The notes beneath the pieces are model-generated. The model had not been told where the DNA came from and searched no databases. It saw nothing but the letters and a program-made list of their open reading frames with translations. Positions 54,997 to 60,911 of a DNA stretch of 64,000 bases are shown piece after piece. The translations under genes were made by a program, and so were the position numbers. Source of the stretch: an uncultured Treponema sp. (lineage in GTDB: Bacteria > Spirochaetota > Spirochaetia > Treponematales > Treponemataceae); NCBI GenBank assembly GCA_946186185.1, contig CAMHMJ010000008.1, positions 34,574-98,573 on the forward strand, read 5' to 3'. The stretch's first letter is position 1. The number at the start of each line of letters is the position of its first letter.

Positions 54997-57156
54997 TTAC
55001 ACCTTAAACTGATCAACCTGCTTTCCGATTTCACTGATTGAGTTTTCCATCAGGACGTTGATTTCGGCAAGTGCATCACCAGTTGCATTGATCTTTCCGG
55101 CACTAATTCCCATTTCATCCATACTGTGCTTCATGGTGCTGGTTTCATTCTGAAGTGTTCCAACCTCTTCCATAATTACACGGCTGTCATTGGTCATGTC
55201 TTTAGAAGCCTTCTGAACCGAATGTGTACTGTCGTTCAGACGGGAAAGAGCATCCGTAATCTGAACGGAACCTTCCTGCTGTTCGGACATTGCAGCCTTA
55301 ATCTGGCGTACAATAGCATCGGTTTCTTCAATTTCAGAAGCAAGGTGTGCATAGCCCTGAACACCCTTCTGAGTAGCCTGAACAACAGTTTCAATGGTAC
55401 TCTGGATTCTTGTAAGCTGTTCACCAATTGTCTTTGACTGGCCTGAAGATGTTTCAGAGAGTTTTCGAATTTCATCTGCAACAACCGCAAAACCCTTTCC
55501 TGCCTCACCAGCGTGGGCAGCCTCAATTGCCGCATTCATGGCAAGGAGATTTGTCTGGTTTGCAATATTTGCAATAACTGTATTTGCTTCACTCAAAAGC
55601 TTAGACTGGTTTTCAATTTCTGTAATCTGGGTCTGAAGAAGACTCTGGGTTTTTGCACCGCTTTCCGCATCTGATTCAAGAGTTTCAAATGAAGAAGCCA
55701 TTTTATCTACCGAACGGTTTACTTCACCGATATTTCCAATCATCTGCTCAACAGCACCGGAAGCCTCTTCCACTGACTGCGCCTGAACTGCGACCAGTTT
55801 TTCAAGAGAATGAATACTTTCAAGAATCTTTTTAACGCTCTCGGAAGTCTGCTCTACGCTGGCGTTCTGATCCTTAAGATTTACATCCAGATTCTTGATG
55901 CTTGCACTGATCTGTTCAATAGAAGCCATTGCATCGCTTGTTGCATCCGTAAGTTTTGCACCGGCATCGTTCAATGAAGCTTTTGACTGCTTCATGCTGA
56001 CGATGATTGCCTGCAGCTTATCCGAGAAAACATTGAAGCTGGCCGCAACATCCCCAATTTCATTTTCAGCTTTAATTTCAATTCGCTTTTTAAGATTTGC
56101 GTTTCCGTTTGCAATCTGCTCGGCAGTTTCACTGATACCGTCTCGGATAACACGAAGCGGCTTCATGATTTGTCGTGTCACAATTGAAATTATAATCGCG
56201 ATAATCACACCAAAAATTGCACATACAAGAATCGTGGTTCTGAGGGTATTTTTGAAGGCTTCAAAAACAGTTTCCTTTGGACAGAAAGCCACAATCTGAT
56301 AGCCCGTACGAGGATTGGTTATGTATTCAGTAAAATAGGTTTCTCCCTTGATATCAATTGAACCGCTCTTAGAAGAGGATGCAAGAAGATTTCTTAATCC
56401 AGGAATACCAATATCGTCGATATTCTTGAAATTATTTTTATCTTTACTGGTATCCGCAAGAATAGTTCCGTCCTTCTGAACCATCATTACAAAGCTTTCT
56501 TTTCCGAAATACATAACGTCAAGAATGCCGGTAAGGGTGTCTAGGGAAACTTCGATGGAAGTATTTCCAATAAAATCGCCGTTATGGTCGTACGCACAGC
56601 GTGTAATTCCTACTACCGTAGCACCAACTGTTGAAGCAAATGCATCGGTAATCATAACCTTTCCATTTCCGTTCAAAGCAGTCTGATACCAGCCGCGCTT
56701 TCTTGGGTCGTAACCGCCGTTCATAGAGCTGTCAAAATTGGTGCCGTATCCACCCCATTTTGTTCCAATATAAATCTCGGCAATATCCTTGTCGTTTCTT
56801 GCAAAGCTCTTACATACCTTGCGGATATTCTCTTCAACCGGGCTTTTTTTGTAGCCAAGAATCTGAATCGTTCCAACTTCATTCACAAAGGAATGAATTG
56901 TGCTATCTGCCGCCTTTACTTCATCAGTTTCAGAAAAAACATTCAGCTCTGTTTCCTTTGCACCAAAAAACATGGAAATTGAATCGGAAAATTCAGAAAG
57001 CTGAGTTCTGGCATTACCATAAAAATCTTCAAGGCTGTTTTTTGAAAAGAAAATTCCTGTTGTAATAGAAGAAATCGCAACAACTGCAACAATGATTAAA
57101 ACTGTAACAATAGAAAATCTGGTCGTAATTGATCGTTTTTTTAAAAGTAAAGGCAT
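54997..57156 (-). CDS. Methyl-accepting chemotaxis protein with Cache-type sensor domain
   Basis: [33 protein letters not shown] hairpin tip; periplasmic domain [17 protein letters not shown]. Confidence 0.95.
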
Positions 57157-57177
57157 GATATCTCCGCATTATAATAG

Positions 57178-57193
57178 ATACTATACATAGTAT
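57178..57193. promoter_or_regulatory. Palindrome in the mcp promoter region
   Basis: ATACTAtacaTAGTAT, just upstream of a minus-strand TATAAT (complement of 57168-57173). Confidence 0.6.
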
Positions 57194-57331
57194 TGTCTAA
57201 AGCTCAAAAAATCAAGCAAAAAAAACAATTTCCTTCAATATAGACGGTTAAATATCTGAAGTTCCAGTTATAAGTCGGTTTTCTTAGTACAATTCAAATC
57301 ATAAAAATATCAGAAAAATAATTTTTTTTAA

Positions 57332-57351
57332 TGTTTCTATTGACAGAAACA
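57332..57351. promoter_or_regulatory. Operator 1, overlapping the -35 of the ECF S-component gene
   Basis: TGTTTCT-ATTGAC-AGAAACA, perfect dyad; -35 TTGACA at 57340-57345. Confidence 0.75.
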
Positions 57352-57368
57352 TTTTTATTTGTTACTAT
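57340..57368 (+). promoter_or_regulatory. Sigma70 promoter of the ECF transporter operon
   Basis: TTGACA (57340-57345) - 17 bp - TACTAT (57363-57368). Confidence 0.75.
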
Positions 57369-57379
57369 CAGTAGTAACA
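57360..57379. promoter_or_regulatory. Operator 2, overlapping the -10 of the ECF S-component gene
   Basis: TGTTACT-ATCAGT-AGTAACA; full dyad TTTGTTACTA-TCAG-TAGTAACAAA (57358-57381). Confidence 0.8.
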
Positions 57380-57457
57380 AAACAAGTGAACAATATGTTC
57401 TTCGTCTGCGAAAAGCTTCTGCATAAAATCCGGTTCACTAAAAAAACGAGGTATAAA

Positions 57458-58063
57458 ATGGAAAAACGAGTATTAAACAAGACAGAAAAAAAGGGTATCA
57501 GCCTTCAGGACCTGCTTCTTACAGCAGTTTTACTTGCAGCAGGTGCTGTTCTTAAGTTCTTTGCAGGAACCTTCATCAACTTCTTTGGAATGAAGCCTAA
57601 CTTCATTATCGCAATGTACTGTATGGCAATTGTTCTTATTCAGCCAAAAATCTACTACAGCCTTATTATCGGTCTTCTTGCAGGCGCAATCTGCCAGTTC
57701 TTCCCGGGAACTCCTTACCTGAACTTTGCTTCAGAAGCAGCCGGCGCCCTTGTAATGGGAGCTTTGATTTTTATTCCTGCAAAAAACAAGGGAATGAAAA
57801 TTGCACTTTCAGCAATCACAACCTTTATCAGCACAGTAATTTCCGGTGGACTTTACACAGTTCTCCTCTTTGTATTCATCAAATCTGACCCGTCTGCAAT
57901 GGCAGCATACGTTCCGATCGTACTTGGAACTGCAACCCTGAATGCCATCATCGTAGGCGCCCTCTACGCACCGCTGATGAAAGCCCTCAAAAAAGAAATA
58001 GTAACAACTGACAAAGCCGAAAACGCGGACACAGAAAAAACAGACGAAGAAAAGACAGAGTAA
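57458..58063 (+). CDS. ECF transporter S component, TrpP-like (predicted tryptophan transporter)
   Basis: TAVLLAAGAVLKFFAG...FFGMKPNFIIAMYCMAIVL; followed by ECF A-A and T genes; substrate is inference. Confidence 0.7.
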   Translation: MEKRVLNKTEKKGISLQDLLLTAVLLAAGAVLKFFAGTFINFFGMKPNFIIAMYCMAIVLIQPKIYYSLIIGLLAGAICQFFPGTPYLNFASEAAGALVMGALIFIPAKNKGMKIALSAITTFISTVISGGLYTVLLFVFIKSDPSAMAAYVPIVLGTATLNAIIVGALYAPLMKALKKEIVTTDKAENADTEKTDEEKTE

Positions 58064-58133: not shown

Positions 58134-59873
58134 ATGATTGAAATACAGGAACTGACATTCAAATACGCCGGGGCAGAAAAAAACGCCCTCGAAAAAATCT
58201 CCCTTAATATAGAAAAAGGCGGCTTTGTTGGAATCATCGGCGAATCTGGTGCAGGAAAAACAACCCTCCTGAACAGCATAAACGGCCTGATTCCCCACCA
58301 CTACAACGGAGATTTTTACGGAAGCGTAAAGGTTTGCGGCTGCGACACCTTTGAAACCAACGCCGGCGAGCTTGCTCTCAAGGTTGGTTCCGTATTTCAG
58401 GACATAGAAAGCCAGCTGACAGGATATTTTGTTGAAGACGAAATCCTGTTCGGACTTGAAAACTTTGGAATTCCTGCTGAAAAAATTGAAAAACGAATCA
58501 CTGAGGCCCTTGAAACTCTGGGGATTTCAGAGTTACGCCACCGGGAGCTTTCTTCCCTCAGTGGCGGACAGAAACAGAAGGTTATTTTTGCGGCAATTCT
58601 TGCCCTGGAACCGGAAATTCTTGTTCTGGACGAACCGACCGGCGAGCTTGACCCGGCCTCTTCCGTTCAGATTTTCAGCCTGCTTAAAAAACTCAACGAA
58701 GAAAAGGGAATCACAATCGTAATCGCGGAACAGAAAATCATGCTGCTGTGCGAATATGTAAAAAAACTGGTTGTTCTGGAAAAAGGAACCTGCGTTCACT
58801 ATGGCGAAATCCGAAGCACCCTTACCCATCAGAAGGAAATGGAAGAAGCCGGAATCAACTGCCCTCGCGTTCTGACACTCACCGGTAAACTGATGAAAGA
58901 AAAGCTGGTGCCGGAAGGAACAACGGAGGAAGACCGCATCTGCCTGAATCCAAAGGAAGCGGCGGTGTTTGTAAAAAAAGCAATTGGAAATAAAGTGACG
59001 TCTGGAAGTGCGGATTCCATCGCTGAAAGAAGTGCCGGAACAACTGCCTCGTCTTCTTCCACAAGTGCAGAAACCGTTCTTGAGTTCAAAAATGTAAGCT
59101 TTTCATACAACGAAACTGCCAATGTAAAGGATCTGAATGTTCAGATTAAAAAAGGCGACTTCGTTTCAATAATCGGTTCAAACGGCGCCGGAAAATCAAC
59201 TTTCTCAAAGCTCTGCAACGGACTTTTAAAACCTTCCACGGGGGATGTAGAAGTTCTTGGAAAAAATACTAAAAAACAGAAGGTCAGCGCCATTGCAAAG
59301 CACATCGGCTTTTTGTTCCAGAACCCTGACCGCCAGATCTGCTGTTCAACAGTTCGGGAAGAAATTGCCTTCAGCTTAAAAAACAATAAAATCCCTGAAA
59401 AAGAAATAAAAGCACGGGTAGAAAAAACTCTGGAAGAGTTCGGTTTTAACCCGGACATGGAGCCCTTCAATATGAGCCGCGGTCAGCGCCAGCGCCTTTG
59501 CCTTGCCTGCCTTATTGCACTGAACCCGGAAATTCTGATTCTTGACGAACCGACCACCGGACTTGACTACCGGGAGTGTATGGAAGTAATGGAAAAAATC
59601 CGAAAGCTGAACGAAAACGGAACCACTGTAATTATGGTCTGCCACGATATGGAAGTTGTTCTTGATTTTGCAAAAAAAATCGTGGTAATGAACCGGGGTC
59701 AGATTCTTGCAGAAGGTGAAACCCGCAGCATTTTGAAAGATAAGGCGCTTCTTGATAAAGCCCGACTTCTTCCTCCGCAGATTGCCCAGGTTTCTTTCCT
59801 TTTAGGAAAGGATTTTGAAGGAATCTTTACAGATGAAGAAATGATTAACCGCATAAAGGAAATACGGGCATAA
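58134..59873 (+). CDS. ECF transporter energy-coupling ATPase, fused A-A' (two ABC domains)
   Basis: Two Walker A motifs (GESGAGKTT, GSNGAGKST), two signature regions (LSGGQKQKV, MSRGQRQRL), two Walker B motifs. Confidence 0.93.
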   Translation: MIEIQELTFKYAGAEKNALEKISLNIEKGGFVGIIGESGAGKTTLLNSINGLIPHHYNGDFYGSVKVCGCDTFETNAGELALKVGSVFQDIESQLTGYFVEDEILFGLENFGIPAEKIEKRITEALETLGISELRHRELSSLSGGQKQKVIFAAILALEPEILVLDEPTGELDPASSVQIFSLLKKLNEEKGITIVIAEQKIMLLCEYVKKLVVLEKGTCVHYGEIRSTLTHQKEMEEAGINCPRVLTLTGKLMKEKLVPEGTTEEDRICLNPKEAAVFVKKAIGNKVTSGSADSIAERSAGTTASSSSTSAETVLEFKNVSFSYNETANVKDLNVQIKKGDFVSIIGSNGAGKSTFSKLCNGLLKPSTGDVEVLGKNTKKQKVSAIAKHIGFLFQNPDRQICCSTVREEIAFSLKNNKIPEKEIKARVEKTLEEFGFNPDMEPFNMSRGQRQRLCLACLIALNPEILILDEPTTGLDYRECMEVMEKIRKLNENGTTVIMVCHDMEVVLDFAKKIVVMNRGQILAEGETRSILKDKALLDKARLLPPQIAQVSFLLGKDFEGIFTDEEMINRIKEIRA

Positions 59874-60116: not shown

Positions 60117-60911
60117 ATGAAAGGATTTTTAGACTACTTACCGGGAAACTCAGTTTTACACAGACTTCACCCGCTTATAAAAATTTTAGCGTCGATTCTG
60201 ATTTGCGCAGCAGCATTCTGCTCTTCAAATTATTTTTATCTTACAGGAATCCTGCTTTTCAATCTCCTTATGGGCCTTGTAGGAAATTTTTCCGGAAAAA
60301 ATACAGGCTCCAGAAGCAACGGACTTTTTAAGCGAACCCTGGGAATCTTAAACGGACTTATCAAAATGTCGGTTTTCCTCTTCATCCTTCAGCTCCTTGC
60401 AATCCGAACCGGCAATGTGATTTTCAGCATCAAGGGCTTTGGCATTACAGACATCGCCCTTCAGAAGGCGCTGCTTCTGGTTCTTCGCCTTATGGGAGCC
60501 ACACTTCCCCTTTCAATTTTGATTTCAGTTACCAACCTGAACGACCTTTCAAATACACTGGTAAAATATCTGCACATTCCGTATAAATACGCCTTCACCT
60601 TTACCAGCGCAATCCGCTTCATTCCGGTTTTCTCCACAGAAATGAGCGGCATCATCGAATCCCAGAAGGCCCGTGGCATCGACTTTGAAATCAAAAACCC
60701 CTTCAAAAAGTTCGGAATGATTCTTCCCCTCTGCTTCCCGCTCCTGATTTCTTCCGTACGAAAAATCGAGTCCACCGCCACCGCCGCCGAACTCCGCGGC
60801 TTCTACCTCAGAACCCGCGCCTGCTGCACAAAAAGCTATCCTGTTCATTTTTGTGACATCGTATTTATTCTGATAACCGGCGGACTTCTGGCTGGAGCCA
60901 TTCTGGTGTAA
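60117..60911 (+). CDS. ECF transporter T component (EcfT)
   Basis: RLHPLIKILASILICAAAF; VSVTNL-type core; SQKARGIDFEIKNPFKKF and AELRGF motifs. Confidence 0.9.
   Translation: MKGFLDYLPGNSVLHRLHPLIKILASILICAAAFCSSNYFYLTGILLFNLLMGLVGNFSGKNTGSRSNGLFKRTLGILNGLIKMSVFLFILQLLAIRTGNVIFSIKGFGITDIALQKALLLVLRLMGATLPLSILISVTNLNDLSNTLVKYLHIPYKYAFTFTSAIRFIPVFSTEMSGIIESQKARGIDFEIKNPFKKFGMILPLCFPLLISSVRKIESTATAAELRGFYLRTRACCTKSYPVHFCDIVFILITGGLLAGAILV

Follow-up and report, generated by a model that had tools for sequence, protein, structure and literature searches.

Two palindromes lie across the promoter of a putative transporter operon in an uncultured treponeme (3.04-Mb assembly, close to Treponema bryantii), and on the other side of the intergenic region a chemoreceptor gene, mcp, is transcribed divergently. 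This arrangement raises the question of which regulator binds the palindromes, which other genes it controls, and whether its reach extends to mcp. Both genes lie within the stretch of 64,000 nucleotides that was analyzed here (the window). The comparative sequence evidence presented below indicates that the palindromes are very probably operators of the tryptophan repressor TrpR and that the same tryptophan-loaded TrpR would repress the transporter operon trpP-ecfAA'-ecfT, the trpE operon and paaK.

The transporter operon and its promoter

The two operators have the same architecture. Operator 1 (TGTTTCTATTGACAGAAACA; 57332..57351, plus strand) and operator 2 (TGTTACTATCAGTAGTAACA; 57360..57379, plus strand) are perfect 7-bp inverted repeats with 6-bp centers, TGTTTCT and AGAAACA flanking ATTGAC in the former and TGTTACT and AGTAACA flanking ATCAGT in the latter, and they are 28 bp apart. 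Each is a predicted TrpR site that matches the consensus exactly, with position weight matrix (PWM) scores of 29.3 and 28.4 bits, respectively. They are superimposed on a sigma-70-type promoter (57340..57368, plus strand) in which TTGACA (57340-57345) falls inside operator 1 and, after a 17-bp spacer, the extended −10 hexamer TACTAT (57363-57368) falls inside operator 2. In a pattern scan, this promoter matches 10 of 12 hexamer positions and has a TG ahead of the −10. The initial annotation had described both the perfect dyads and their placement on the −35 and −10 elements, and both descriptions hold in the sequence and in the promoter scan. Two such dyads arose in 9 of 5000 dinucleotide shuffles of the 301-bp mcp–trpP intergenic region, and operators 1 and 2 are the only zero-mismatch matches to the consensus within the window. 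Operator 1 is conserved in the trpP promoters of relatives, and the 28-bp spacing to operator 2 is kept in close relatives.

The gene downstream (57458..58063, plus strand) encodes a TrpP-type S component of 201 amino acids (Pfam PF17099, 38.3 bits against a cut-off of 27.2), as had been proposed earlier. It is followed on the plus strand by ecfAA' (58134..59873), a fused pair of ECF ATPases with two ABC_tran stretches that follows trpP across phyla, and by the T component gene ecfT (60117..60911; Pfam CbiQ PF02361, 83.6 bits), whose neighborhood is conserved. The PF17099 protein thus shares an operon with EcfA, EcfA' and EcfT, which is what defines membership of the TrpP-type ECF transporters. 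An alternative start codon for trpP, TTG at 57359, was set aside in favor of ATG at 57458 because the former coincides with operator 2, while a purine-rich ACGAGG precedes the latter. RNA-based control of trpP was considered and rejected, as folding of the 5' leader is no better than that of shuffled sequences (z 0.39) and the trpP region contains neither an Rfam family at gathering score nor an intrinsic terminator.

Distribution of the motif and its neighboring genes

Sites were searched genome-wide by pattern matching, with TGTTNCTN6AGNAACA as the relaxed pattern. The exact motif has four matches in the 3.04-Mb genome, all of them in two promoter pairs (trpP, and trpE on contig 28) and not at random positions, and the reversed control pattern has none. 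The pair on contig 28 is located 80 bp upstream of trpE, in front of an operon of trpE-trpGD-trpCF-trpB; a third site (AGTTACTATGAATAGTAACG), weaker at 18.2 bits, follows immediately behind the pair. Directly upstream of this trp operon (L016 2798-7338) are thiM-, thiE- and thiD-like ORFs and a cytosine/purine-type permease, a set that by eye resembles thiamine salvage. The only one-mismatch pair in the genome lies on contig 18, upstream of paaK and behind iorAB (L017 4786-8945); read by eye, the paaK promoter consists of TTGACA, 17 bp and TACTAT, the −10 again being within the second site. The PWM of the motif has the consensus TGTTWCTATNNATAGWAACA, and accepted sites score 18-29 bits.

Across 59 congener genomes, exact TGTTWCTN6AGWAACA occurs at 173 sites versus 9 for the reversed control; nine of these genomes have no exact site, and TrpR is nonetheless present in all nine. 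The genes next to the sites were clustered from ORFs called mechanically, start sites included, in 48 regions around sites and, in addition, in the trpP loci. Several loci counted here and in the trpP footprint below come from genomes that were sampled under more than one name, and the loci are therefore not independent. The gene starts adjacent to sites belong to trpP (13 loci), trpE (13), a TrpX-like SBP (12), TrpB2 (10) and paaK (8), with smaller clusters for trpGD (5), an ABC permease (5) and trpA (2); a further cluster is a shikimate-pathway enzyme, which, like trpA, was named by eye. The 20-bp palindrome is found upstream of trpE in this genome and in 12 congener loci. The TrpX-type SBP matches the NCBIfam TrpX model at 259 bits, below the cut-off of 390, and the TrpB-like (TrpB2) enzyme scores 677.7 bits, above its model cut-off. 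The distance from site to ORF start is about 100 bp or less in nearly all cases.

The trpP promoters were footprinted over 80 named loci, with sites counted at up to two mismatches. The dyads are conserved in all 57 Treponema trpP promoters that have upstream DNA, down to approximately 56% identity, each carrying one to five sites. At more distant Treponema and Spirochaetia trpP loci, a variant of the motif, mostly with C or A as the first base, is present in 10 of 12, and none of nine outgroup trpP promoters (Synergistaceae, Peptococcaceae, Halanaerobiaceae and Lachnospiraceae-labelled) contains the motif. Of the 26 promoters that have TTGACA inside a site, 16 share the layout of the window, in which the second site contains TACTAT and the spacing is 28-29. 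Others place the second site 29-52 bp downstream, and exact overlap between operator and −10 is therefore not universal.

TrpR as the candidate repressor

The initial annotation suggested that a single repressor could act through the dyads on both divergent genes. The first half of this claim, one regulator for the two dyads, is supported, and the genome-wide scan and promoter footprinting that the annotation had put forward as checks gave strongly positive results. The regulator can be named as probably TrpR, the motif tracking trpR. Outside the window, on contig 3 (92863-93168), this genome has a trpR gene whose product scores 58.1 bits against PF01371 (gathering cut-off 27). A PF01371 family protein above the cut-off is also encoded in 58 of 59 congeners. 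A plain phmmer search with the genome's own TrpR gave no matches among solved structures; a profile built from 12 congener TrpRs recovers the structures of E. coli TrpR at an E value of about 1e-9. Against TIGR01321, the NCBIfam TrpR equivalog model with a cut-off of 67.25, the protein scores 58.6 and that of congener L091 scores 71.1, above the cut-off, and the YerC/YecD model scores below TIGR01321 wherever it is listed. TrpR contacts DNA through Arg69, Thr83 and Arg84 in E. coli numbering (PMC9413887). The equivalent residues, R66, T80 and R81, placed by profile alignment to the E. coli TrpR chain, are invariant in the 12 congeners, and E. coli Ile79, Ala80 and Thr81 are replaced by Leu, Cys and Lys or Asn in Treponema TrpR. 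With Arg69 and the outer bases conserved but the inner contacts altered, the operator may have shifted in a lineage-specific manner. Of the tryptophan-pocket residues (Thr44, Arg54 and Arg84), the equivalent T42 is nearly invariant (Ser in this genome's protein) and R52 and R81 are invariant.

The association between motif and trpR was computed at two levels, position and co-occurrence. The motif lies directly upstream of trpR in 10 of 30 congeners and, at up to three mismatches, in 12 of 14 trpR loci of spirochaetes from other families, where it is often doubled at a spacing of 18 bp. In the trpR promoters of family f24 (L258, L259, L261-L264, L277), the two motif copies 18 bp apart overlap by two bases. 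Among 149 genomes of the phylum outside the genus, with Y as the first base of the motif and with p values uncorrected for relatedness, 32 of 57 TrpR-encoding genomes carry the motif versus 13 of 84 that lack TrpR (p = 4.9e-7); in the same test, the reversed control is not enriched with TrpR (7/57 versus 26/84). Most of the TrpR genomes that lack the motif belong to family f15, and with f15 set aside post hoc the figures are 30 of 34 versus 13 of 84 (p = 9.5e-14). The TrpR-like proteins of f15 read MPQYEIAK, with Tyr at position 69, where motif-carrying genomes have Arg. The f15 loci (L268-L271, L273, L274, L276, L278-L281, L284-L286), which have Tyr69 and no such operator, offer a naturally occurring contrast in specificity inside a single phylum. 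The most likely repressor is TrpR, with TGTTWCTATNNATAGWAACA as its spirochaete-specific operator.

It is very unlikely that a different regulator of aromatic amino acid metabolism binds the motif. The shape of the palindrome by itself would suit several repressor families, TrpR binding is a prediction, and the trpR gene of this genome has no site upstream; against this, the motif stands directly ahead of trpR in many spirochaetes, its distribution over the phylum tracks trpR, and its 20-bp length and TGT/ACA ends are those of TrpR sites (PMC9413887). Very unlikely, too, is the second half of the earlier claim, that the repressor also controls mcp (54997..57156, minus strand), which encodes a dCache_1 chemoreceptor (Pfam dCache_1, HAMP, MCPsignal), and so couples uptake with chemotaxis through a third palindrome, ATACTATACATAGTAT, at 57178..57193. 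This perfect 16-bp palindrome is present as described. It has the core ACTAT-N2-ATAGT in common with operator 2-type sites, occupies the 17 bp between the hexamers of the predicted minus-strand mcp promoter (TAGACA-17-TATTAT) and ranks 14th by PWM among about 64,000 window positions. As an operator, however, it does not hold, being a different motif that scores −2.5 bits, far from operators 1 and 2 and from the accepted range, because the outer TGT/ACA is missing. No such palindrome was found upstream of 11 mcp orthologues (59-74% identity), and no congener has a divergent mcp adjoining trpP; at a single congener locus (L044), an MCP of 39% identity lies upstream of trpP on the same strand. 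The mcp–trpP neighborhood looks like a local rearrangement. Sensor residues Y149, R154, W156 and Y157 match Y121, R126, W128 and Y129 of the dCache_1AA motif (PctA numbering), but F, S and E seem to stand at the positions of Y144, D146 (presumably part of this amino-acid motif) and D173 when read by eye with no structural alignment. The sensor would thus carry only part of the amino-acid-binding signature, Y-x4-R-x-W-Y, the rest being not clearly present. Given the score, the orthologue promoters, the neighborhood and the partial signature, a role of this repressor in linking uptake to chemotaxis is unsupported, and mcp was judged to be outside the regulon.

The predicted regulon and known systems

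We infer that TrpR binds the motif, that tryptophan is its co-repressor and that binding represses transcription. When tryptophan is ample, tryptophan-loaded TrpR dimers would occupy both operators, masking the −35 and −10 hexamers and shutting off trpP-ecfAA'-ecfT; when tryptophan is scarce, TrpR would release the operators. In this genome, the same repressor and 20-bp motif would also govern paaK and the trpE-GD-CF-B operon; in relatives, their reach would extend to TrpX-type ABC transporters, TrpB2, iorA and trpR itself. What points to tryptophan supply as the putative role of TrpP-ECF is its membership of the regulon.

The recurrent company of trpP adds a second possible role. Among 56 trpP loci longer than 9 kb, paaK flanks 19 and ior flanks 16 (about a third), and the usual order is paaK, operators, trpP-ecfAA'T and then iorBA in convergent orientation. 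Where paaK is apart from trpP, it still has its own sites (L017, L125, L127, L144), and a one-mismatch site lies just upstream of iorA at four loci from three species (L049, L197, L202 and L215, of which L049 and L202 share a contig). In a Halanaerobiaceae locus from another phylum (L236), trpP-ecfAA'T is followed by iorAB and paaK on one strand, without the TrpR motif. The presence of paaK, and in some species iorA, in the TrpR regulon suggests salvage of tryptophan from indole-acetate. Given that the remaining targets serve tryptophan supply, control of PaaK and IOR by tryptophan repression would suggest that these enzymes work towards tryptophan, converting indole-acetate through indoleacetyl-CoA into indolepyruvate. 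Reductive carboxylation of this kind has precedent in classical studies of rumen bacteria and methanogens. A tentative scheme, and on balance a doubtful one, is that in rumen treponemes TrpP-ECF imports indole-3-acetate, PaaK makes the CoA ester and IorAB reductively carboxylates it to indolepyruvate, from which tryptophan would be remade, all under TrpR control. If so, repression by tryptophan would mean that PaaK and IorAB run anabolically.

This scheme bears on the substrate of the transporter and leaves the repressor as TrpR. That TrpP-ECF carries an indole acid such as indole-3-acetate instead of tryptophan, with PaaK and indolepyruvate:ferredoxin oxidoreductase remaking tryptophan under TrpR repression, would account for the gene order around the operators in many Treponema, for the co-directional arrangement in the halanaerobial locus, for the sites that paaK retains when distant from trpP and for those ahead of iorA. 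Conversely, the Pfam assignment is TrpP, ior and paaK are not next door at most trpP loci outside this clade, and the IOR–PaaK pair could also run degradatively; an indole acid is an unlikely substrate.

With TrpR as the likely repressor, the spirochaetes would gain a defined tryptophan regulon with its operator and targets. Its regulation assigns a likely function to the uncharacterized TrpP-ECF and TrpX-type ABC transporters and to TrpB2, PaaK and IOR in rumen and gut treponemes, and if paaK and ior are repressed by tryptophan, this would indicate that indole-acetate is used as a source of tryptophan. None of the open-access papers searched describes a spirochaete tryptophan regulon; among Proteobacteria, TrpR has been reported in Gammaproteobacteria only, and spirochaetes are not mentioned (PMC5343134).

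As an ECF transporter with a TrpP S component (PF17099), the Treponema system has the S component followed by the ATPase(s) and the T component in one operon, as conserved across phyla, and differs in that many Treponema keep paaK and iorAB as company. Like the gammaproteobacterial TrpR regulon (PMC5343134), it would involve a PF01371 repressor, a 20-bp palindrome with TGT/ACA ends, and trpE, trpR and tryptophan transporter genes as targets. The gammaproteobacterial operator consensus is TGTAcTnGTnnACnAgTACA (PMC9413887), which the Treponema sites do not fit, their core being TTWCTAT where the gammaproteobacterial one is TAcTnGT. The targets also differ, as those predicted in Treponema are the ECF TrpP module, TrpX-type ABC transporters, TrpB2, paaK and ior, and the trpR of this genome is without a site. 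Lineage-specific consensus sequences are known in the PF01371 family (PMC9413887); the initial annotation called the operators novel, which is correct in that their consensus is particular to this lineage, but the repressor family is a known one and no new type of regulator is implied. A similar case is the HisR (YerC) regulon described in Firmicutes and other groups, which shares the Pfam family, the 20-bp length of the palindrome, a consensus that varies by lineage, frequent autoregulation, and the combination of biosynthesis and transport targets (PMC9413887). In Firmicutes, HisR recognizes the motif cacTTTAnnnnnnTAAAgtg and has Tyr at position 69 (PMC9413887). Whereas HisR targets histidine genes, the Treponema protein retains Arg69, and its predicted motif is found at trp genes.
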